A stretch of DNA of 64,000 bases from an uncultured Colwellia sp. Its GTDB lineage: Bacteria; Pseudomonadota; Gammaproteobacteria; Enterobacterales; Alteromonadaceae. The notes under the pieces are model-generated. The model had not been told where the DNA came from. It did no database searches and worked only from the letters and a program-made list of their open reading frames with translations. Shown piece by piece: positions 7,542 to 43,445 of the stretch. Each line of letters begins with the position of its first letter. Positions within the stretch are counted from its first letter, which is position 1. A program made the translations under genes and the position numbers. The stretch lies in contig CAJXQI010000014.1 of assembly GCA_913058395.1 (NCBI GenBank), positions 1 through 64,000 of the forward strand, in the 5' to 3' direction.

Positions 7542-10148
7542 ATGGATAGTCAGGTAGTCAGAAAAACAAAAGTTGTAGTGATCGGAAATGGCATGGTTGG
7601 CCATCACTTTGTTGAACAACTTGTTGAACTCAGTAAAAAAGAGCAAGTGATTGAAATAACCGTACTCTCAGCTGAATCTCGACTTGCTTACGACCGTGTG
7701 CACCTCTCTGAATACTTCGCAGGTAAGTCTGCGGCCGATTTAGCCATGACAGATGAAGAAACCTACCAAAATTGGCAAATTAATTTTGCCGTTGATGCCA
7801 AAGTTAGCCATATCGATAAAGACGAAAAATTTGTAGAAACCGAGCAAGGGCAGCGCTATGACTACGACAAGCTAGTGTTAGCAACTGGCTCTTATCCGTT
7901 TGTTCCACCCATTCCAGGCAAAGATCAAGAGCACTGCTTGGTTTACCGCACTATTGATGATTTAGAAGCCATTAATGCCAGTGCTAAAGTTAGCAAAGTT
8001 GGTGTTGTTATTGGTGGTGGTTTATTGGGCTTAGAAGCCGCTAATGCATTAAAACAGCTAGGTTTGAAAACGCATGTGGTTGAATTCGCGCCTCAGTTAA
8101 TGGGCGTACAAGTTGATGCCGGTGGTGGGCGTTTATTAAAAGATAAAATTAACCAGCTTGGTGTTGAAGTTCATACCTCAAAAGCAACCAGCGAAATTAT
8201 CGCAGGCGAGCAAAGTCGTTATAAATTGTGCTTTAGTGATGGCAGTGAATTAGAAACTGATTTGATCTTATTTTCAGCAGGTATTCGCCCGTATGACAAT
8301 TTAGCACGTAGCTTTGACTTAGCGGTTGGCGAGCGCGGTGGAATTGTTATTGATAACCAATGCCAAACGTCAACGAAAAATATTTATGCGATTGGTGAAT
8401 GTGCGTTGTGGAATAACTTTATATTTGGCTTAGTTGCTCCTGGGTATGCCATGGCAAAAGTCGCCGCAGAACATATTCTAGGACAAAGTGCAGAATTCAC
8501 TGGTGCTGATATGAGTACCAAGTTGAAATTGATGGGCGTTGAGGTTGGCTCAATTGGTGACGCTCATGCAAAAGCTGCAGGCTCTCTTTGCTACACCTAT
8601 GAAAATCAGCCAAATGGCGTTTATAAGAAAATAGTGATTAATGCCGATAAAACTCAGCTATTAGGCGCGGTACTTATTGGCGATACCAGTGAATACGACA
8701 CACTTTTACAATATATGCTTAATGGTATTGAGTTACCTGAATCGCCAGAAGCGCTTATTCTCCCAATGGCAGCTGATAAACCCGCATTAGGTGTTGATGC
8801 CTTACCTGATAGTGCCACTATTTGTTCTTGTCATAATGTAACTAAAGGCGACATTGTTAGCGCTATTGATAACGGCGCGTGTACTGTGGGTGATGTTAAA
8901 AGCTGCACTAAAGCTAGCTCTGGTTGTGGTGGTTGTACAGCGCTGGTTAAAAATGTTACCGATAGCATATTAGAGCAACGTGGCGTAGAAGTTAAAAAAG
9001 ATATTTGTGAGCACTTTGCTTATTCACGCAGAGAGCTTTTTGATATTGTGAAAGTGGAAAAAATTACCACCTTTGAACAATTGCTATCTTCACATGGCCA
9101 AGGTTTAGGGTGTGAAGTCTGTAAGCCGCTAACGGCCTCTATACTAGCTTCAGTATGGAATGATTACATTTTAGAAAAATCCCATGTCGGCCTACAAGAT
9201 ACCAATGATACCTTCCTTGCCAATATGCAAAAAGACGGCACTTATTCCGTTGTACCTCGTATTGCTGCTGGCGAAATTACCCCCGACAAACTGATAGTGT
9301 TGGGTGAAGTTGCAAAAAAATACAACTTATATACCAAAATCACCGGTGGCCAACGGGTTGACTTATTTGGTGCTCGTGTTGAGCAATTGCCATTAATTTG
9401 GCAAGAACTGGTAGAGGCAGGTTTTGAAACTGGCCATGCCTACGGTAAGTCATTAAGAACAGTAAAATCTTGTGTTGGCTCTAGTTGGTGTCGATATGGG
9501 GTACAAGACAGCATAAGTATGGCAATACTGTTAGAGAATCGCTACAAGGGCTTGCGTGCGCCGCACAAAATCAAGTTTGCGGTATCAGGTTGTACACGCG
9601 AGTGTGCTGAAGCGCAAAGTAAAGATATTGGCATTATCGCCACAGATAAAGGCTGGAACCTTTATGTTTGTGGTAATGGCGGCATGAAGCCACGCCATGG
9701 GGATTTATTTGCCACTGATTTAGACGATGAAACACTGGTTAAGTATATCGATAGAGTATTGATGTTCTATGTTAATACCGGTGATAGATTACAACGTACG
9801 TCAGTGTGGATGGATAACTTAGCAGGTGGTTTAAGTTATCTACAAAGCGTTGTTATAGAAGATAGTTTACAAATATCGACGGAACTTGAAAAGCAAATGC
9901 AGAGTATTGTCGGTACTTATCAATGTGAATGGAAAACAACCCTTGCTGACCCTGAAGCATTGAAGCGCTTTAAGCCATTTGTCAACTCAGACAAAGCTGA
10001 TTCAAATATAGTGTTTGTCGAAGAGCGTCAGCAAATTCGTCCAGCATACCCACATGAGCGTATTCCAGTTCAAGTTAGCGATAATGAACCAAAAACGTCG
10101 CTTGAAAAATCATCAGCGCAAAGCGCTAAAATTGTTGAACCTGCCTAA
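7542..10148 (+). CDS. nirB: Assimilatory nitrite reductase large subunit NirB
   Basis: NirB reduces nitrite to ammonium with NAD(P)H through FAD, Fe-S and sirohaem. Domains in order are an FAD/NAD(P)H oxidoreductase (about 10-320, VVIGNGMVGHHF and VGVVIGGGLLGLEAANAL), two BFD-like [2Fe-2S] segments (CSCHNVTKGDIV..CTKASSGCGGC near 432-470 and a second near 500-540), a nitrite/sulphite reductase ferredoxin-like half, and the sirohaem/4Fe-4S core (GCTRECAEAQSKDIG). I chose the ATG at 7542 because AGGTG lies 7 nt upstream. In-frame starts at 7521 and 7536 would add 7 or 2 residues. The stop TAA sits inside the nirD Shine-Dalgarno. Confidence 0.96.
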   Translation: MDSQVVRKTKVVVIGNGMVGHHFVEQLVELSKKEQVIEITVLSAESRLAYDRVHLSEYFAGKSAADLAMTDEETYQNWQINFAVDAKVSHIDKDEKFVETEQGQRYDYDKLVLATGSYPFVPPIPGKDQEHCLVYRTIDDLEAINASAKVSKVGVVIGGGLLGLEAANALKQLGLKTHVVEFAPQLMGVQVDAGGGRLLKDKINQLGVEVHTSKATSEIIAGEQSRYKLCFSDGSELETDLILFSAGIRPYDNLARSFDLAVGERGGIVIDNQCQTSTKNIYAIGECALWNNFIFGLVAPGYAMAKVAAEHILGQSAEFTGADMSTKLKLMGVEVGSIGDAHAKAAGSLCYTYENQPNGVYKKIVINADKTQLLGAVLIGDTSEYDTLLQYMLNGIELPESPEALILPMAADKPALGVDALPDSATICSCHNVTKGDIVSAIDNGACTVGDVKSCTKASSGCGGCTALVKNVTDSILEQRGVEVKKDICEHFAYSRRELFDIVKVEKITTFEQLLSSHGQGLGCEVCKPLTASILASVWNDYILEKSHVGLQDTNDTFLANMQKDGTYSVVPRIAAGEITPDKLIVLGEVAKKYNLYTKITGGQRVDLFGARVEQLPLIWQELVEAGFETGHAYGKSLRTVKSCVGSSWCRYGVQDSISMAILLENRYKGLRAPHKIKFAVSGCTRECAEAQSKDIGIIATDKGWNLYVCGNGGMKPRHGDLFATDLDDETLVKYIDRVLMFYVNTGDRLQRTSVWMDNLAGGLSYLQSVVIEDSLQISTELEKQMQSIVGTYQCEWKTTLADPEALKRFKPFVNSDKADSNIVFVEERQQIRPAYPHERIPVQVSDNEPKTSLEKSSAQSAKIVEPA

Positions 10149-34418: not shown

Positions 34419-34859
34419 TTATGAAAGTTTAAGTTTGTTATCCACCGAAAGCTTTTCACCGCCAATTAGCATCACAAATACTAATAAACTTCCCCATAAA
34501 ATATGTTCATTGAGCGCTGCAGGGCTGATATCAATTAAGCTAAGTACCGCAATGTAATTTACCACAAATAAACCAAGGGCAGACAAGCGGCTAAACAAAC
34601 CTATTGCTAACAGTATTGGTAACACTATTTCACCAATTGTACCTGCCCATGCCGCAACTACCGGCGATAATAATGGTACTTCATACTCATACTCAAAAAG
34701 CATTAATGTTGACTCCCAATCACGCAACTTAGTAAGACCTGATTTGAAGAAAATACTAGCGACGTAAAGTCGGACAAATAGCATTGCCGGAATACGTAAG
34801 TAATCGCTGTAATCTAAAATTTGGTTGTGTAATGCTCTAACTTTTTGCAAAGCCATCAT
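34419..34859 (-). CDS. DoxX-family membrane protein of the bufferin operon (BufD-like)
   Basis: This 146-residue inner-membrane protein has four predicted helices and the DoxX pattern RLYVASIFFKSGLTKLRDWESTLMLFEYEYEVPLLSP. AGGAA lies before the ATG at 34859. It is the last gene of the minus-strand block bufA-bufB-bufC-doxX, 85 nt after bufC. DoxX proteins occur as the fourth component of bufferin operons, and their specific role is unknown. A part in electron transfer or in moving the peptide or metal across the inner membrane is only inference. Confidence 0.85.
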   Translation of the reverse strand: MMALQKVRALHNQILDYSDYLRIPAMLFVRLYVASIFFKSGLTKLRDWESTLMLFEYEYEVPLLSPVVAAWAGTIGEIVLPILLAIGLFSRLSALGLFVVNYIAVLSLIDISPAALNEHILWGSLLVFVMLIGGEKLSVDNKLKLS

Positions 34860-34944
34860 AAGTATTCCTCTTTTTTTTAAGTTATAAGGTAGTGTTTATA
34901 AATTTTGTGGGTTCAATTTTACTAATCAAGTCGAAGTTATGACG

Positions 34945-35808
34945 TTAACTTGGTGTGAGTAATGAAATTGAATGTATTAATTGCTGTTGAATTGCTTGTG
35001 GTAGCCAAGCAATAATTGAAAACTCTTCTTGATTAGTTTTGTCTAACGCACCACCAATACTGAGCGGCTGAACACTAGAAGGATGTTCAATACTTTCTGT
35101 CATAGTCGCCGATTGCCATAGCGCCAACCATTGGTATTCTTGCTGTGTAATTTGTTGATACTGCGCTTGAAAATTCGGTCGCCAAACAAGCAGGTAGTAT
35201 TGACCCTTTTGATAATCAGTAAGCTGTTCGGCAATATCATTTAAGGTGCTGTGAGTGCTACCTTTATCAGCTTTGGTGCTTTTATGACTGTTGGTAATGT
35301 CAGTGATGATTAAATCAGCAGGGTAGTCGAGTTTTATCACCTTAAAGCCTGCAGCGAAATTAAGTTTTAGTTGATACGCGCCAACATCATTGAGCAATGA
35401 TAAAGTCGTTAAATCTTTCTCAACATTTTCAGCACGCTCTGTATGGTGACAAGCAAAATCTAATGCGGCTATTGCCGCTAAAACTTCACTATTTGGTCGC
35501 GATTGTTGCTTGATAAAGTGTGGGAAATTGTCGCCCAACTCCCCCCAGTCAAATTGCGTTTTTAAGTGTTTTTGCAAATACTCTTTTACTAACTGAGAAA
35601 AGTCACTTTTGCCGATAAATGAATGTACGGTGGCAAAGGTAATGGCTAATGCTCTACTGGCATTGGCTAATAAACTGTGTTGATAAATACTCAACCCAGC
35701 TGCAGAAACATCGCTTAGGTTATGGGCGCTATTTTCTTGCAAAGGTTCTAACGAAAATATCGCAGATAGCATTTGTGATTGTTGTTGCTTAATATTCACG
35801 GATTTCAC
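34945..35808 (-). CDS. bufC: DUF2063 (HvfC/BufC N-terminal) partner protein
   Basis: This 287-residue cytoplasmic protein of the HvfC/BufC family has the typical start QQSQMLSAIF..LSIYQHSLLANASRALAITFATVHSFIGKSDFSQLVKEYL. In known systems it pairs with the DUF692 enzyme and presents or recognises the precursor peptide. The GTG start at 35808 lies within the bufB stop region (20-nt overlap), so the two are translationally coupled. A second in-frame GTG at 35799, 8 nt after AAGG, is equally possible. The C-terminal half is variable, which is normal for recognition partners. Confidence 0.85.
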   Translation of the reverse strand: MKSVNIKQQQSQMLSAIFSLEPLQENSAHNLSDVSAAGLSIYQHSLLANASRALAITFATVHSFIGKSDFSQLVKEYLQKHLKTQFDWGELGDNFPHFIKQQSRPNSEVLAAIAALDFACHHTERAENVEKDLTTLSLLNDVGAYQLKLNFAAGFKVIKLDYPADLIITDITNSHKSTKADKGSTHSTLNDIAEQLTDYQKGQYYLLVWRPNFQAQYQQITQQEYQWLALWQSATMTESIEHPSSVQPLSIGGALDKTNQEEFSIIAWLPQAIQQQLIHSISLLTPS

Positions 35809-36775
35809 CTTCTTCAGGAGTTTTATCGCTGGTACTTTCTTCGTCAGTAGTTAAATAGCTATTTGTGAAAACATGCTTTGCTATGGCTCTCGCTTTATCG
35901 GCTTCAGCTATCAGTGTTGCCCAAGAAGGCAAGTCTTCATCCCATTCGATTAATGTCGCTACAGGGCCAAATTTTTCTAGCGCAAAGTGATACAAAGACC
36001 AAACATCATCTGATACTGGCTGACTATGGTCATCTATCATTAATTGCTGTGCGTCAACTTGCGTACAGCCTGCTAAATGTATTTCACCGACAAGTGATGA
36101 CGGAATGTTTTCAAGCCACTGCTTCGCCAGTGCTAATACATTATTGTGTGCTGATGAATCAGATTGTTTGGCCATTAAAGTGACTAATGGTTGGTTGATG
36201 GCATTAACAATAAGGTTATTCAAATCAACTAATAATTTACAACCAGACTGTTGGCAAAGTTTCACTAAAAACTCGGCTTCACTGTAAGTTGAACCAGGCA
36301 ATTCAATATAGGCAGACAAGTTTTCTACCAATATCTGTCGACCTAGCTGCGCTTGTGCTCGTTTAACATTACTGACCATAATGTTTAAGCTTTCATCGTT
36401 GAAAGGGACTGGTAGTAAATCACCTGCGTGTACATCTAGCCCTTGGCTTTCAGCCCAGCTAAAGCAGGCATGGTCTGATACTAATATTGGCTGATAACGT
36501 GCAATTAAATTACTGAGTTGCTCAAGCTGTTTTTGTGGTGCAGGTAACGCTGAGCCTAAACCTAATGATGTTGCATGTAAGCTAATTTTATAATGCTGAC
36601 TTATATCGGTAAGTACTGCATGACTTACGCCGCCTTTAGCGAAAAAGTTTTCTGCATGTACTTCAATGAAGTCGATGTTAGCTGGAGAGTTTATGGCATC
36701 TTCAAAGTGAGTATGCCTTAAACCAACACCAATCAAGGGTAAGCTGTTTGGTGCTTTTTTGTTCAAGGAAAACAT
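35789..36775 (-). CDS. bufB: DUF692 multinuclear non-haem iron oxidase (MNIO), BufB-type
   Basis: BufB-type MNIOs use iron and oxygen to modify cysteines of a precursor peptide, in bufferins to thiooxazole rings. The 328-residue TIM barrel shows the family order: GVGLRHTHFED, FIEVHAENFFAKGG, ISLHATSLGLGSA, LVSDHACFSW, ILVENLSAYIELPGS, LLVDLNNLIVNA, GEIHLAGC and LIEWDEDLPSW. The H, E and D residues in these stretches are the expected iron ligands. I chose the ATG at 36775 with GGAG 7 nt upstream rather than an ATG at 36793 that lacks one. It follows the precursor gene bufA by 51 nt and overlaps bufC. Confidence 0.92.
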   Translation of the reverse strand: MFSLNKKAPNSLPLIGVGLRHTHFEDAINSPANIDFIEVHAENFFAKGGVSHAVLTDISQHYKISLHATSLGLGSALPAPQKQLEQLSNLIARYQPILVSDHACFSWAESQGLDVHAGDLLPVPFNDESLNIMVSNVKRAQAQLGRQILVENLSAYIELPGSTYSEAEFLVKLCQQSGCKLLVDLNNLIVNAINQPLVTLMAKQSDSSAHNNVLALAKQWLENIPSSLVGEIHLAGCTQVDAQQLMIDDHSQPVSDDVWSLYHFALEKFGPVATLIEWDEDLPSWATLIAEADKARAIAKHVFTNSYLTTDEESTSDKTPEEGEIREY

Positions 36776-36795
36776 AGGTTTCTCCAGTAACATCG

Positions 36796-36822
36796 AAAAA
36801 GGGCAGGCCGTTATAGCGGCCT
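36796..36822 (-). terminator. Possible attenuator between bufA and bufB
   Basis: AGGCCG and CGGCCT form a 6-bp GC-rich stem with a 6-nt loop. On the minus strand it lies just past the bufA stop and is followed, after GCCC, by five T. Such a weak terminator would let the precursor be transcribed far more than its modifying enzymes. Confidence 0.5.
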
Positions 36823-36826
36823 TTAT

Positions 36827-37114
36827 TTAAGCGTTTTTCTTTACTAACGCACGAGCTTCTTTGCGTGTTAAGCCACCTTGGCTCTTACAAAGCCCTTTGG
36901 TCACTAAGCGCCACTCACCAGGATCGTTATCTACATTCGATTGTCCGGCGCAAGAGTGAGTACCCGCGATATTGCTACAGTCGTTTTGCCCTGCTAAAGA
37001 TACGCCGTAGCATTTTTCTTTTTTGGCGCGCTTTTCTGCGGCATCAACATCGGAAATTACGCCTAGTGATAAAACTGCAGCTAATGCTGTTGATAATGCA
37101 AGGTTATGATTCAT
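36827..37114 (-). CDS. bufA: DUF2282/BufA1-type bufferin precursor (modified metallophore peptide)
   Basis: This 95-residue precursor has a Sec signal peptide (about residues 1-25, LSLGVISDVDA), then a basic stretch and a core with four cysteines: C35 (KEKCYG), C46 (GQNDCSN), C55 (HSCAGQS) and C76 (KGLCKSQGG). This KCYGV..GQNDCS..HSCAGQS..W pattern is the BufA1 hallmark. In Caulobacter such peptides are modified by the MNIO, exported and bind copper in the periplasm. It lies directly before bufB and 15 nt behind a thioredoxin gene. GAGGAAAG precedes the ATG. Metal identity is not visible from sequence. Confidence 0.9.
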   Translation of the reverse strand: MNHNLALSTALAAVLSLGVISDVDAAEKRAKKEKCYGVSLAGQNDCSNIAGTHSCAGQSNVDNDPGEWRLVTKGLCKSQGGLTRKEARALVKKNA

Positions 37115-37129
37115 ATGACTTTCCTCTAA

Positions 37130-37447
37130 TTAATGTTCGTTTAACCATGCTAGTAACTCTTTTTTTGGCGCAGCGCCAACATGTTCAGATGAAACTAGTT
37201 TGTCTTTTAAAAGTAATAGCGATGGAATGCTCCGAATACCGTATTTTTGCGCTAAAACGGGCATGTCATCAATATTGACCTTAACAGCCTTCACACGGCT
37301 TGATTGTTCCCCTGCAACTTGCTCAAAAATTGGTGTCATTGCTTTACAAGGACCGCACCATGGCGCCCAAAAATCGACTAACACTTCGGTGTTTGACGCT
37401 AGAACGTCAGTAAAGTGTTGTTCACTTCTGATTTCTTCTACACTCAT
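37130..37447 (-). CDS. Cytoplasmic thioredoxin in the bufferin operon
   Basis: This 105-residue thioredoxin has the canonical active site WAPWCGPCK (near residue 30) and cis-proline SIPS near 75. No signal peptide is present, so it acts in the cytoplasm. AGGAA precedes the ATG. It lies 15 nt before bufA, so it is almost certainly co-transcribed. My inference is that it keeps the precursor's cysteines reduced for BufB. It is shorter and more divergent than the housekeeping TrxA that the genome should carry elsewhere. Confidence 0.9.
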   Translation of the reverse strand: MSVEEIRSEQHFTDVLASNTEVLVDFWAPWCGPCKAMTPIFEQVAGEQSSRVKAVKVNIDDMPVLAQKYGIRSIPSLLLLKDKLVSSEHVGAAPKKELLAWLNEH

Positions 37448-37484
37448 CGCTTTTCCTACTTACTTTTGTGGTTTTAATTTTGAA

Positions 37485-37546
37485 ACTTAACTAAACATTT
37501 AACTAAATACTTAATTAAAACGATTTACTAAAGTGCTTTATTAAAG
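37485..37546. repeat. Degenerate 12-13 bp tandem repeats before the thioredoxin gene
   Basis: Five head-to-tail units can be aligned: ACTTAACTAAAC, ATTTAACTAAAT, ACTTAATTAAAA, CGATTTACTAAAG and TGCTTTATTAAAG. The last touches the stop codon of the YHS gene. The array fills the gap between the YHS gene and the thioredoxin-buf genes on the minus strand. It is AT-rich, so chance similarity is possible. Confidence 0.45.
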
Positions 37547-38008
37547 CTGGTCGGCAGCAACACTTTTAATGTCAGTCCAGTTTTCACTAGAAAGGTTTAA
37601 GTAACCTGGTACGTCAGTTAACCATTTCTTTTGTACATCTTTATTCAGATTCAAATACAATTTGTTATCGACAATTTTCCAGGCTAATGGATCCGTATCA
37701 AACTTCTTCTCCATTGCTACACCAAAGGCACAGTAACCACCGTATTGTGGTGCATATTTAGCAGGGCTTGCTTTAAACATATCGCGATTTTCTTCGTTGC
37801 TAAAACGATAGATACCGCCTTTATATGTTGCTGTGTAGCTAGCATTACCCATTTTAGGCGTCGACATTGTGAAGTAACTTACTGGGTCATAGCCTTTAAT
37901 TGCTAAGTCGTTAGCATCAGCATTCATGTCGATGTCGGCGGCAAATGAAAGGCTGCTAGCAACTAAGATAGAACCCGCTAGAATTGTTTTTAAAGTTGTT
38001 TTAAACAT
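37541..38008 (-). CDS. Secreted YHS-domain protein
   Basis: This 155-residue protein has a signal peptide (MFKTTLKTILAGSILVASSLSFA). The mature part carries a YHS-type domain: LAIKGYDPVSYF, then YRFSNEENRDMFKASPAKYAPQYGGYCAFGVA. A single cysteine sits in the GGYCA motif. YHS domains are linked to heavy metals and to membrane metal pumps, but the role of stand-alone exported forms is unknown. It shares strand and direction with the thioredoxin-buf genes, 93 nt upstream of them, and faces the AraC regulator across a 115-nt promoter region. Confidence 0.87.
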   Translation of the reverse strand: MFKTTLKTILAGSILVASSLSFAADIDMNADANDLAIKGYDPVSYFTMSTPKMGNASYTATYKGGIYRFSNEENRDMFKASPAKYAPQYGGYCAFGVAMEKKFDTDPLAWKIVDNKLYLNLNKDVQKKWLTDVPGYLNLSSENWTDIKSVAADQL

Positions 38009-38081
38009 GTTGTTTCCTAAATTTTGTTGGTTGTTAATGACGGGAGAAATAATAGTGTTGATTGACTAGTGAGTGGGATAC

Positions 38082-38118
38082 AATCGTCCGCACTTTGAAC
38101 CAAATCGTCCAAGTTGCG
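38082..38118. promoter_or_regulatory. Tandem direct-repeat operator between YHS gene and AraC regulator
   Basis: AATCGTCC occurs at 38082-38089 and again at 38103-38110, exactly 21 bp (two helical turns) apart, in the divergent promoter region. Each is followed by a partly similar half (GCACTTTG and AAGTTGCG). Such an arrangement is typical of a dimeric AraC-type regulator with two HTH motifs per monomer, here most likely the adjacent one. Confidence 0.6.
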
Positions 38119-38123
38119 TATTT

Positions 38124-38945
38124 ATGGACCATCTTTCACAAATAATTGACCGATTTAGCCTGCAAGCGGGGGTGTTTTACACCGGCAAGCTCTGTGGTTT
38201 GTCTCATTTTAATGAAGGGGCTGCGTTAGAAGGTCACATTCATTTATTGCGCAGTGGTACGCTTTCTATTGTCGGCTTAGATAAAGCCACCATAGTATTA
38301 GACAAGCCTTCAATTATTTTTCTGCCTAGGCCGGTTAAGCATGGCTTGCAGGCAAGAGACACAGACAATGCTGAACTTATCTGTGCAACAGTGACCTATG
38401 GTAGCAATAGCTCAAACTTATTAGCCGAAGCCTTACCTGACTTATTAATATTACCTTTAGCTGAGTCGCCATTTTTGCAAACCAATATTGATTGGATTAT
38501 TGCCGAAGCGGGGCAAGAGCAACAAGGGCGCCAAGCGGTGATGAATCGTTTGATGGAAATATTCATTATCAATATGATGCGCTCGCTTATTACTAAAGGT
38601 GATATTGCCCAAGGTATGCTGGCGGGGTTAATGCACCCCCAACTGAAAAATGTTTTACAGCAATTACATAATCATCCAGAAGAACATTGGTCATTAGAAA
38701 AAATGGCTGGGTTGGCGTTAATGTCACGCTCAAAGTTTGCCGAAGTATTTAAAGGTGTTATTGGTCAAACACCTAATGATTACTTAGTCAGTTGGCGAGT
38801 AGGGGTTGCGCAGTCTTTATTAAAACAGGGTAAAAACGTTAGTATTGTTGCTAATAGTGTTGGTTATGAAACCGCTTCTGCCCTTGCGCGTGTTTTTAGA
38901 AAACAAACGAATATGTCGCCAAAAGAATGGCTAGAACAACAATAA
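38124..38945 (+). CDS. AraC-family regulator with N-terminal cupin domain
   Basis: This 273-residue regulator has a cupin-like sensing half (GVFYTGKLCGLSHFNEGAALEGHIHLLRSGTLSIVG..IVLDKPSIIFLPRPVKHGLQA) and a C-terminal double HTH (HPEEHWSLEKMAGLALMSRSKFAEVFKGVIGQTPNDYLVSWRVGVAQSLL and VGYETASALARVFRKQTNMSPKEW). It is divergent from the YHS-thioredoxin-buf block. I chose the ATG at 38124 because a GTG start at 38073 would place the direct-repeat operator inside the gene. No good ribosome-binding site is visible, so it could be leaderless. Confidence 0.87.
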   Translation: MDHLSQIIDRFSLQAGVFYTGKLCGLSHFNEGAALEGHIHLLRSGTLSIVGLDKATIVLDKPSIIFLPRPVKHGLQARDTDNAELICATVTYGSNSSNLLAEALPDLLILPLAESPFLQTNIDWIIAEAGQEQQGRQAVMNRLMEIFIINMMRSLITKGDIAQGMLAGLMHPQLKNVLQQLHNHPEEHWSLEKMAGLALMSRSKFAEVFKGVIGQTPNDYLVSWRVGVAQSLLKQGKNVSIVANSVGYETASALARVFRKQTNMSPKEWLEQQ

Positions 38946-40468: not shown

Positions 40469-41383
40469 TTAAAAAAGATATGAATATAAGTAACCTGCAC
40501 CTATTGCCATAGATAATATTACCGTCAAGAAAGCTATTATCATTGGGTTTTTAAATAGTGACTTAAGTAATATGACTTCCGTTAAGCTAGCGCCAGCACT
40601 GCCGATAATTAATGCCATTACAGCGCCTAATCCCATGCCTTTTGCGGCTAATGCTGCGCTTAACGGAATAACTGCTTCTGCTCTAATATATAACGGAATA
40701 CCAATTACTGCTGCGATAGGAACTGCGAATGGGTTACTTTCACTGGCAACGTTAGCAACAAATTCAGTCGGCATAAATCCGTAAATCATTGAACCTAAGG
40801 CGATGCCGCCAATTAGATAAGGTAATACTTTTTTAAAGTCTGCCCACGTGCTGTGCCAAATTCTAGTCCACTTGCTCACTGGCTTATCGTTACTACCGCA
40901 GCTACTTGCACAAGCTTTGTTTTCAGGCGTGATGTATGCTTCAGGCTTGATGTATTTTTCAAAACCTAATTTCTCTAATAGATAACCAGCAGCGATCGAT
41001 ACGCCCATTGCGATAGTGAAATAGAATACTGTTACTTTTACACCAAAAGTTACGGCAAATAAGCCAATAATAATGGGGTTAAGTAGTGGGCTAGCAAATA
41101 AAAATACCATCATGGTGCCAAAGCCAGCTTTCGCTCTAAGCAGTCCTTTTAAAAAAGGGATGGTTGAGCAAGAGCAGAAAGGTGTAATAGCGCCAAGAAA
41201 CCCCGCAATGATATAACCTTTACCATTTTTACTACTTAATATGCTTTGGATTTTACTTGGCGGAATGTACTCCTGTAGTACACCAACAATATAACTAATA
41301 AGCAAAAAGAGTATGGTTAACTCTACGGCTAAAAAGGCAAACATGTTTAAGGTATCAAATACCATTTGTTGTGTGATGTTCAC
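40469..41383 (-). CDS. Permease of the ArsP/YraQ (DUF318) family
   Basis: This 304-residue inner-membrane protein has about eight helices. The family motif GAITPFCSCSTIPFLKGLLRAKAGFGT near residue 61 carries the CSC cysteines implicated in ArsP-type organoarsenical efflux, and the repeated half has GIPLYIRAEAVIPLSAALAAKGMGLGAVMALIIGSAGAS. A cysteine-rich cytoplasmic loop (NKACASSCGSNDKP) lies between the halves. It is divergent from an ArsR regulator with a dyad between them, the usual setup for metalloid-inducible permeases. The actual substrate (arsenical or another soft metal) is inferred. Confidence 0.85.
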   Translation of the reverse strand: MNITQQMVFDTLNMFAFLAVELTILFLLISYIVGVLQEYIPPSKIQSILSSKNGKGYIIAGFLGAITPFCSCSTIPFLKGLLRAKAGFGTMMVFLFASPLLNPIIIGLFAVTFGVKVTVFYFTIAMGVSIAAGYLLEKLGFEKYIKPEAYITPENKACASSCGSNDKPVSKWTRIWHSTWADFKKVLPYLIGGIALGSMIYGFMPTEFVANVASESNPFAVPIAAVIGIPLYIRAEAVIPLSAALAAKGMGLGAVMALIIGSAGASLTEVILLKSLFKNPMIIAFLTVILSMAIGAGYLYSYLF

Positions 41384-41485: not shown

Positions 41486-41516
41486 GTAGTAGGTAAACCT
41501 ATTGAGAAATAACATC

Positions 41517-41807
41517 ATGGACATAGAAATTATTGCCAAGGCTCTAAAAGAATTAGGGCATCCAACCCGTTTAGCAATATTTAAACGTTTAGTTAAATCA
41601 GGCGAGCAGGGGATCGCTGTCGGCGTAGTGCAAGAAGAGTTAAAAGTGCCGGGGTCGACATTATCGCACCATATATCTAGTTTGGCGTCTGCAGGATTAA
41701 TTAAGCAACGTCGCGAAGGGCGAGTACTTTATTGTGTGGTGGAGTATGAAAAGTTACTTTCTGTTATAGCTTTTTTGCAAGATGAATGTTGCATTGACGA
41801 GCAGTAG
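41517..41807 (+). CDS. ArsR/SmtB-family metalloregulator
   Basis: This 96-residue winged-helix repressor has IIAKALKELGHPTRLAIFKRLVKSG, the recognition helix VQEELKVPGSTLSHHISSLASAGLIKQRREGRVLYC and a C-terminal cysteine pair in FLQDECCIDEQ. That pair, with the cysteine after the wing, could bind arsenite or another thiophilic metal, a different position from the classical helix-3 CVC site. The ATG at 41517 is chosen over the TTG at 41502. Divergent from the permease it probably controls. Confidence 0.9.
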   Translation: MDIEIIAKALKELGHPTRLAIFKRLVKSGEQGIAVGVVQEELKVPGSTLSHHISSLASAGLIKQRREGRVLYCVVEYEKLLSVIAFLQDECCIDEQ

Positions 41808-42869: not shown

Positions 42870-43445
42870 TTACAGCTTGTCTAAGGAGTATCTTAGTTTT
42901 TGATTTTTTAATGCCCGAAAATAACTTGGGGTTAGGCCGGTGATTTTTTTAAACTGTCCACTTAGATGAGCAACGCTGCTGTAGCCTAATTGAAAAGCAA
43001 TTTCCCCTAGTGCTAATTCGTCATAGACTAAAAGTTCTTTTACCTTTTCAACACGTAATTTTATGAAATGTTGCTCGATTGTGACTCCTTCAATTACCGA
43101 AAACAAATGGCTGAGATAGTTATATTCAAGTTTCACTGTATCGCTAATATGTTGAGATAGCGTTATTTTGTTTGATATATCAAAATACTTGAGGTAGTCG
43201 AGGCATGAGTTTTTTATACTTTCGATTAGCTTACTTTTTTTGTCACTCAGTATAGAAAAACCTAACTCTTCTAAGTTGTTAGATAAAAGTGATAGGGCAT
43301 TACTAGGCAGTGAATCACCATAATTTTCTGCAAAATCAATTTCACCCAAAGTAATAGAAGCATATTGTAAGTCGCTATTTTCAAGTAGAGTTTTGACTGC
43401 TAAGGTGCAACGGTCACAGACCATGTTTTTGATATATATTTTCAT
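42870..43445 (-). CDS. AraC-type regulator with N-terminal HMA-like metal-binding domain
   Basis: This 191-residue fusion begins MKIYIKNMVCDRCTLAVKTLLE, an HMA (heavy-metal-associated) domain whose C10-x2-C13 motif matches copper chaperones and pump domains. The C-terminal half is a double HTH of AraC type (LSHLFSVIEGVTIEQHFIKLRVEKVKELLVYDELALGEIAFQLGYSSVAHLSGQFKKITGLTPSYFRALK). Such compact sensors should read a soft metal directly. DUF4396 is the likely target. It is much shorter than ordinary AraC regulators because the usual cupin domain is replaced. Confidence 0.85.
   Translation of the reverse strand: MKIYIKNMVCDRCTLAVKTLLENSDLQYASITLGEIDFAENYGDSLPSNALSLLSNNLEELGFSILSDKKSKLIESIKNSCLDYLKYFDISNKITLSQHISDTVKLEYNYLSHLFSVIEGVTIEQHFIKLRVEKVKELLVYDELALGEIAFQLGYSSVAHLSGQFKKITGLTPSYFRALKNQKLRYSLDKL

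Follow-up and report, generated by a model that had tools for sequence, protein, structure and literature searches.

We analysed a bufferin-1 operon with two added genes in a 64,000-nucleotide (nt) stretch of DNA from an uncultured Colwellia sp. (contig CAJXQI010000014.1 of assembly GCA_913058395.1, positions 1 to 64,000), referred to as the window; all coordinates are window positions. By open reading frame (ORF) reading and profile searches, six minus-strand genes (38008 to 34419) follow the order YHS, thioredoxin (Trx), bufA, bufB, bufC and doxX. This order, a neighbouring RclR-like regulator gene, a direct repeat upstream of the YHS gene and long co-inheritance are all seen in the sequence. 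Judged from these sequences, operons with the YHS/Trx extension are a genuine and heritable bufferin-1 variant of marine Gammaproteobacteria. We give even chances to the reading that the operon is a conserved, redox-equipped variant in which Trx keeps the cysteines of the precursor BufA reduced for the enzyme BufB, and of the roles considered for Trx this appears the most likely.

Pfam and NCBIfam searches agreed with the names proposed by the first-pass annotation, which had described a BufABCD-like set preceded by a thioredoxin and a YHS protein. All six genes are present at that place on the minus strand, and the four precursor cysteines and the 15-nt gap between trx and bufA had been given correctly. 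BufA matched PF10048 (DUF2282, 78.7 bits, cut-off 22.4), BufB matched PF05114 (MbnB_TglH_ChrH, 285.7 bits, cut-off 25), BufC matched PF09836 (DUF2063, 50.6 bits, cut-off 27.2) and DoxX matched PF07681 (58.4 bits, cut-off 23.6). With a four-cysteine precursor and adjacent MNIO, DUF2063 and DoxX genes, the locus has the gene content of a bufferin-1 cluster. BufB scored 298.9 bits with NF050167, just below the equivalog cut-off of 310, which is a naming threshold and not a biological trait. The NCBIfam models HvfX (49.1 bits, cut-off 80) and HvfC (35.5 bits, cut-off 142) stayed below their cut-offs. BufB keeps the His, Asp, Glu and Asn positions that are invariant among its relatives; it had no match in a defence library, and BufC had none among PDB sequences. 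The N-terminus of BufA is hydrophobic by inspection and ends near VDAAEK, and the four cysteine columns are filled in all aligned copies of the YHS type. Trx exceeded the cut-offs of TIGR01068 (112.7 bits, cut-off 96.8) and Pfam Thioredoxin (97.1 bits, cut-off 23.5). Gaps of 93 nt (YHS to trx), 33 nt (bufA to bufB) and 85 nt (bufC to doxX) separate the genes, and the bufB and bufC frames share 20 nt.

We surveyed gene order around bufA in related genomes. Genes for DUF2282 proteins were found in 59 of 196 genomes of the family; samples of the order and of the phylum gave 101 of 295 and 102 of 398 genomes, respectively. Close examination covered 141 loci, comprising the window, 60 family loci, 40 loci from the order and 40 from wider groups. 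The order and wider loci were hand-chosen, mostly one per genus, with 16 of the 40 wider loci from the same class, and six of the 67 family DUF2282 places were left out (G181, G142, the second G019 C6 copy, G164, G121 and G032). A YHS gene was scored when it lay no more than 1100 nt upstream of bufA, and a Trx gene when it lay no more than 450 nt upstream, in both cases on the bufA strand. YHS preceded bufA in 51 loci (40/61 family, 11/40 order, 0/40 wider), and Trx was present in 28 (20 family, 8 order, 0 wider). YHS is thus the commoner added partner and Trx the patchier one. Trx never occurred without YHS, and it lay between YHS and bufA in 28/28 cases; both genes were missing from 90 of the loci. 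Weak same-strand matches to the thioredoxin fold also occurred beyond the survey limits, as in the wider locus L133, which has no YHS (an exported protein at −621, E 5e-4). The YHS-Trx-BufABCD composition that the first-pass annotation had singled out is therefore recurrent, with no case among the 40 loci from beyond the order.

An accidental adjacency with no functional meaning is extremely unlikely, and the locus survey already contradicts it. A YHS_seleno gene lay within 1.5 kb of 41 of the 67 family DUF2282 places, where gene numbers and a genome size taken as 4.5 Mb would predict about 0.07, and these 41 make up the bufA-associated share of the 130 family YHS places. The order is also clade-wide and extends to named marine genera well outside Colwellia; what could be said for accident is that sigma-70 promoter-like sites in the region were no commoner than in shuffled sequences (7 found, 9.9 expected). 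Among the best 80 of 485 named loci found with the BufA profile, 36 had YHS, 21 of those had Trx, and 34 counted as betaproteobacterial had neither. The named YHS loci in this set include Colwellia, Thalassotalea, Bowmanella, Marinobacterium, Aestuariicella, Pseudomaricurvus and Parendozoicomonas. Because the named loci overlap with the 141 loci and represent the best 80 of 485, the two counts are neither independent nor complete. Distant DUF2282 matches were found in 143 plasmid records, none of which covered 80% of the query.

To follow descent, a quick BufB tree was built with 130 loci; a BufB match was in place in 132 of the 141. One clade of 53 rows (SH-aLRT 98) held 26 loci with YHS and Trx, 21 with YHS only and 6 without YHS. 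This clade contained 47 of the 48 YHS loci on the tree, with only L106 outside, which bears out the earlier suggestion of a distinctive variant. The presence of Trx required 7 changes on the same tree and may reflect an old gain followed by losses, or several gains. When operon YHS proteins were compared with 14 other YHS proteins, leaving out the broken YHS of L051, 3 changes were counted, 1 of them forced by starred branches. Within the genus (5 genomes), the median ratio of nonsynonymous to synonymous polymorphism (pN/pS) ranged from 0.09 to 0.33 over seven genes; YHS had the lowest value in the operon (0.087), YHS and the AraC-family regulator were the most constrained, and BufC was the least.

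The operon Trx carries the WC[GA]PC motif in 28/28 copies. In a tree with other thioredoxins (30 loci drawn from matches in 16 genomes, minus two operon copies), the operon copies fell outside the two housekeeping clades, TrxA-like and TrxC-like, both of which were supported and were labelled by sequence; thus, they are not recent spare copies. The related HvfBC enzyme needs dithiothreitol (DTT), which serves the iron cofactor and keeps the precursor thiols reduced, and a disulfide-bonded precursor was unreactive, according to a 2026 preprint (PMC13419390). Since HvfBC ignores the disulfide-bonded precursor, a cytoplasmic Trx encoded beside bufA, which the first-pass annotation had suggested as a way to keep the precursor cysteines reduced, fits the need for a reduced precursor. 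The main text of that preprint makes no mention of thioredoxin. Trx also stays with bufA where bufB and bufC are elsewhere. In L036 the order is YHS-Trx-BufA-DoxX and the sole MNIO match of this one-contig genome is 1.5 Mb distant, and in L243 of Marinobacterium lutimaris Trx adjoins bufA, with bufB and bufC 2–3 kb further on. These two loci suggest that the client of Trx is the precursor or the regulator rather than BufB. In another locus, L123, bufA is tandemly duplicated within a YHS-Trx operon. A separate thioredoxin-fold protein with a signal-like N-terminus directly follows bufC in five loci (L077, L078, L079 at 9244-9750, L084 and L113); of the three scanned with Pfam (L078, L079 and L113), one, also searched with NCBIfam, was nearest to ResA.

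On this basis we propose the following sequence of events. Copper or another thiol-oxidising stress would oxidise a cysteine pair of the regulator and turn the operon on. A hairpin after bufA could yield a surplus of BufA over BufB and BufC, and the co-produced cytoplasmic Trx would hold the four BufA cysteines reduced. BufB and BufC would then convert the two central cysteines, to thiooxazole in the bufferins that have been studied. The peptide would leave by Sec and sequester periplasmic copper, with its outer cysteine pair forming a disulfide. The YHS protein would probably act as a periplasmic single-thiol redox or thiol-binding partner, and DoxX would sit in the membrane. For Buf1, Antoine et al. 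2025 (PMC12452194) describe modification of the central cysteines and a disulfide between the outer pair. The hairpin was found by a terminator-like scan of the region (5 structures, 3.8 expected) and is possibly an attenuator that keeps BufA in excess over the enzymes. It is paired in the 4 aligned genus members with 2 compensated pairs; this alignment left out the genus member L073, which has a different spacer, and its three outgroup rows contributed no cells.

Cysteines of BufB itself were also compared, leaving out L103, L152 and L159 (overlong upstream frames) from the BufA and BufB counts. Cys110, Cys180 and Cys243 (window numbering) are common among YHS-clade MNIOs and rare among the other bufferin-1 MNIOs sampled. 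The fractions were 0.89/0.83 for Cys110 and 0.52/0.74 for Cys180 in the YHS clade, and 0.20 and 0.07, respectively, elsewhere. Cys110 and Cys180 were considered as extra cysteines linked to Trx and rejected, as their higher frequency follows the YHS clade and not the presence of Trx. Cys243 was somewhat commoner with Trx (0.63 vs 0.39; 0.01 elsewhere).

Several points weigh against the redox-equipped reading as a whole. Modification, metal binding, co-transcription and regulation are predicted here from sequence. All 16 genomes checked encode further thioredoxins, and 23 of the 51 YHS loci lack Trx, which is hence not essential to the variant. A single origin of the operon Trx is not firmly supported, as the branch that separates the operon copies from the 28 other thioredoxins has weak support (68/12). 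In genome G030, the precursor-only locus L036 has Trx and a complete YHS-BufABC operon (L037) has none, a distribution equally in keeping with a Trx function that does not involve BufB. The covariation of the hairpin is not significant (72 of 500 shuffles did equally well). Finally, a fold search with an AlphaFold model of the YHS protein (mean pLDDT 72.7) returned no match at E ≤ 0.001, the best being two cilia-protein chains (E 0.024 and 0.036).

Some of these points are also in line with a more general function, in which Trx and YHS protect against copper- or oxidant-driven thiol damage under the same regulator and take no part in bufferin maturation. This is possible, although we consider it unlikely. 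The many bufferin-1 loci lacking both genes, the 7 changes of the patchy Trx on the BufB tree and its retention at L036 agree with it, as does the rise of thioredoxins among other genes in copper-stressed Caulobacter, a general stress response described for one medium (PMC8224329). General protection explains less well why Trx never occurs without YHS and always lies between YHS and bufA, and the position of the operon copies outside the TrxA-like and TrxC-like clades also speaks against it.

The first-pass annotation overlooked the RclR-like regulator, the direct repeat before YHS, the hairpin between bufA and bufB, and a separate BufA2-type locus in the same genome. The start of the divergent AraC/Cupin_6 gene was set at 38124, Met 18 of the ORF beginning at 38073, as this Met aligns with the start of RclR. 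RclR was the best NCBIfam model (100.9 bits, below the cut-off of 400), and identity to E. coli RclR was 26%. Cys41 and Cys104 (numbered from 38073) were kept in 33/33 aligned copies, 32 from YHS loci and one from L141, a locus without YHS. In a pairwise alignment with E. coli RclR, Cys104 falls opposite Cys89, and Cys41 is offset from Cys21 by three residues; Cys21-Cys89 is the activating disulfide of RclR (PMC7464077).

The direct repeat GGACGATT-N13-GGACGATT was found with up to 3 mismatches in 33 of the 51 YHS loci, in 1 of the 90 loci without YHS and in 0.25% of 2040 Markov-sampled controls. Its matches in the window are perfect by construction, because the motif was derived from the same sequences. 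Among YHS loci, the repeat was present in 30 of 35 with the neighbouring regulator and in 3 of 16 without it. The period of 21 gave 33 loci, and other periods from 10 to 32 gave 0 to 5 each, except for period 31 (19 loci). The repeat is the probable operator of the AraC-family regulator, and the regulator and this candidate operator together hint at a thiol-oxidation signal. The window site was the only one in its genome with fewer than 3 mismatches. Further targets of the regulator were sought in this genome and rejected, since at up to 3 mismatches a reversed control pattern gave 73 matches against 14.

The regulator offers another role for Trx, namely resetting the sensor by reducing its oxidised cysteine pair and so turning the operon off. 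Thiol reductases of the OxyR regulon switch off OxyR in this manner. The invariance of both regulator cysteines and the presence of the RclR-like gene in 26/28 Trx loci, against 13/23 YHS loci without Trx, accord with such a reset. However, the raw association (26/2 vs 13/10) disappeared when phylogeny was taken into account (sign test on 5 independent pairs, p 1, with too few pairs to reach 0.05), the regulator occurs without Trx in 13 loci, and L088 has Trx with no RclR-like regulator in 14 kb. We regard sensor resetting as improbable.

The YHS protein matched NCBIfam YHS_seleno_dom (NF041384) at 152 bits (cut-off 70), and its match to Pfam YHS remained below the cut-off (25.2 vs 30.3). Its N-terminus is signal-like by inspection. 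Several copies of one group are lipoprotein-like (L041, L046, L050, L051, L059 and L080), and those of L054 and L055 also fit the lipoprotein pattern, probably through an overlong start. Cys93, in the motif YGGYC, is conserved in 50 of the 51 operon copies, the exception being the truncated L051. Against PDB sequences, the best match was adenylate kinase 9 (E 2.4e-4).

The first-pass annotation had proposed that this protein receives or shuttles the metal in the periplasm. In favour of this, no other added gene is as constant as YHS, its pN/pS is the lowest of the operon, and an adenylyl cyclase of M. phlei has a YHS domain that is a probable Cu sensor, with a proposed metal site of Asp and three Cys (PMC4626032). 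However, this ligand set of metal-binding YHS/TRASH domains is absent from the window protein, which has one conserved Cys, and the Pfam YHS match is below its cut-off. In a review table, one NF041384 member is given with a selenocysteine GxU motif (PMC13188914). We read the position of this motif as that of Cys93 (GGYC), which would favour redox use or thiol binding of Cys93. A metal shuttle is very doubtful, and the proposal is not supported by the sequence. Away from bufA, 7 of the 14 loci of other YHS genes (L297, L298, L299, L302, L303, L304 and L307) have a YHS paralogue upstream of a gene read by eye as hemC, and in most of them an esterase-like gene precedes the paralogue; this neighbourhood pointed to no function.

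We compared the operon with known systems. Bufferin-1 clusters (BufA1-BufB1-BufC1-DoxX, including the sigF operon of Caulobacter) have the same four-cysteine DUF2282 precursor, MNIO, DUF2063 protein and DoxX in the usual order (PMC12452194). Unlike them, the window operon adds the upstream YHS and Trx genes and the repeat with a 21-bp period, and has an RclR-like AraC regulator in place of a sigma factor/NrsF. The gig operons of Cupriavidus and Legionella are likewise bufferin-1 clusters. The E. coli RclR/RclABC reactive-chlorine system shares an AraC regulator with one matching sensor cysteine and is tied to copper chemistry through RclA (PMC7464077), but it differs in its target genes, and the window regulator is far below the RclR model cut-off. 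HvfABC-type clusters share a Cys-rich exported precursor, an MNIO, a DUF2063 partner and a requirement for a reductant in vitro (PMC13419390); their precursor belongs to another family. The BufA2-type locus elsewhere in the same genome (L001) has DoxX, precursor, MNIO and DUF2063 genes as in the window operon, with a BufA2 precursor, and reading of 3.8 kb at this locus found no YHS- or Trx-like ORF of at least 70 aa.

In the bufferin survey, further conserved genes were reported at no more than extremely low frequency, and the gap limit for unrelated genes was 10 bp (PMC12452194). With this limit, the Trx (15 bp) and YHS (93 bp) genes of the window would be left out; some relatives have shorter gaps. 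Thioredoxin, YHS and AraC do not occur in the main text of that survey or of a second MNIO survey, a passage of which mentions co-occurring transcriptional regulators without naming them. Among the matches listed, no paper linked bufferin/DUF2282 clusters with YHS. The features of the locus are given in Table 1.

Table 1 Features of the extended bufferin-1 operon and its regulator in the window.
Feature	Position	Strand	Basis
AraC-family regulator, Cupin_6 domain, RclR-like	38124..38945	+	Pfam Cupin_6 and HTH_18
Direct repeat GGACGATT-N13-GGACGATT, 21-bp period, probable operator for the AraC-family regulator	38082..38110	-	Survey of YHS loci
Exported YHS_seleno-family protein, 155 aa, single Cys (Cys93)	37541..38008	-	NF041384
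Thioredoxin, WCGPC active site, without signal peptide by inspection	37130..37447	-	TIGR01068, Pfam Thioredoxin
BufA1-type precursor (DUF2282), Cys 35, 46, 55, 76	36827..37114	-	PF10048
Hairpin and T-run between bufA and bufB, possible attenuator	36805..36822	-	Terminator-like scan
BufB-type MNIO (DUF692)	35789..36793	-	PF05114
BufC-type DUF2063 partner	34945..35808	-	PF09836
DoxX-family membrane protein	34419..34859	-	PF07681

Beyond the AraC gene, at a distance of 1.5 kb, an ArsP_1-type permease (40469-41383) is divergent from a small regulator that reads as ArsR (41502-41807). The permease has weak similarity to Cu/Zn efflux proteins of the SO_0444 family (96 bits, cut-off 300), and the pair is possibly a second metal module. 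Another AraC-type regulator (42870-43445) has the N-terminal sequence MKIYIKNMVCDRC, which resembles a heavy-metal-associated motif; Pfam gave the HTH only.

A broader form of the BufA-reducing role, which we put forward tentatively and consider unlikely as a whole, is that the operon encodes the physiological reductant of the MNIO pathway. A dedicated Trx, gated by oxidant or copper, would feed reduced precursor to BufB, and a secreted YHS thiol protein, whose cysteine is replaceable by selenocysteine in relatives, would handle the cysteines or disulfide of the exported peptide. If true, this would be a self-contained redox line that produces a metallophore during exactly the stress by which its substrate is oxidised. 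Trx beside bufA across much of a large clade is a candidate for the in-cell reductant of MNIO substrates, and the RclR-like regulator would tie copper-binding peptides to the sensing of thiol oxidation. The bufferin operon also provides a defined setting for studying the function of YHS_seleno proteins. This variant of Colwellia-related marine bacteria suggests how a copper-binding peptide may stay chemically ready for processing under stress.

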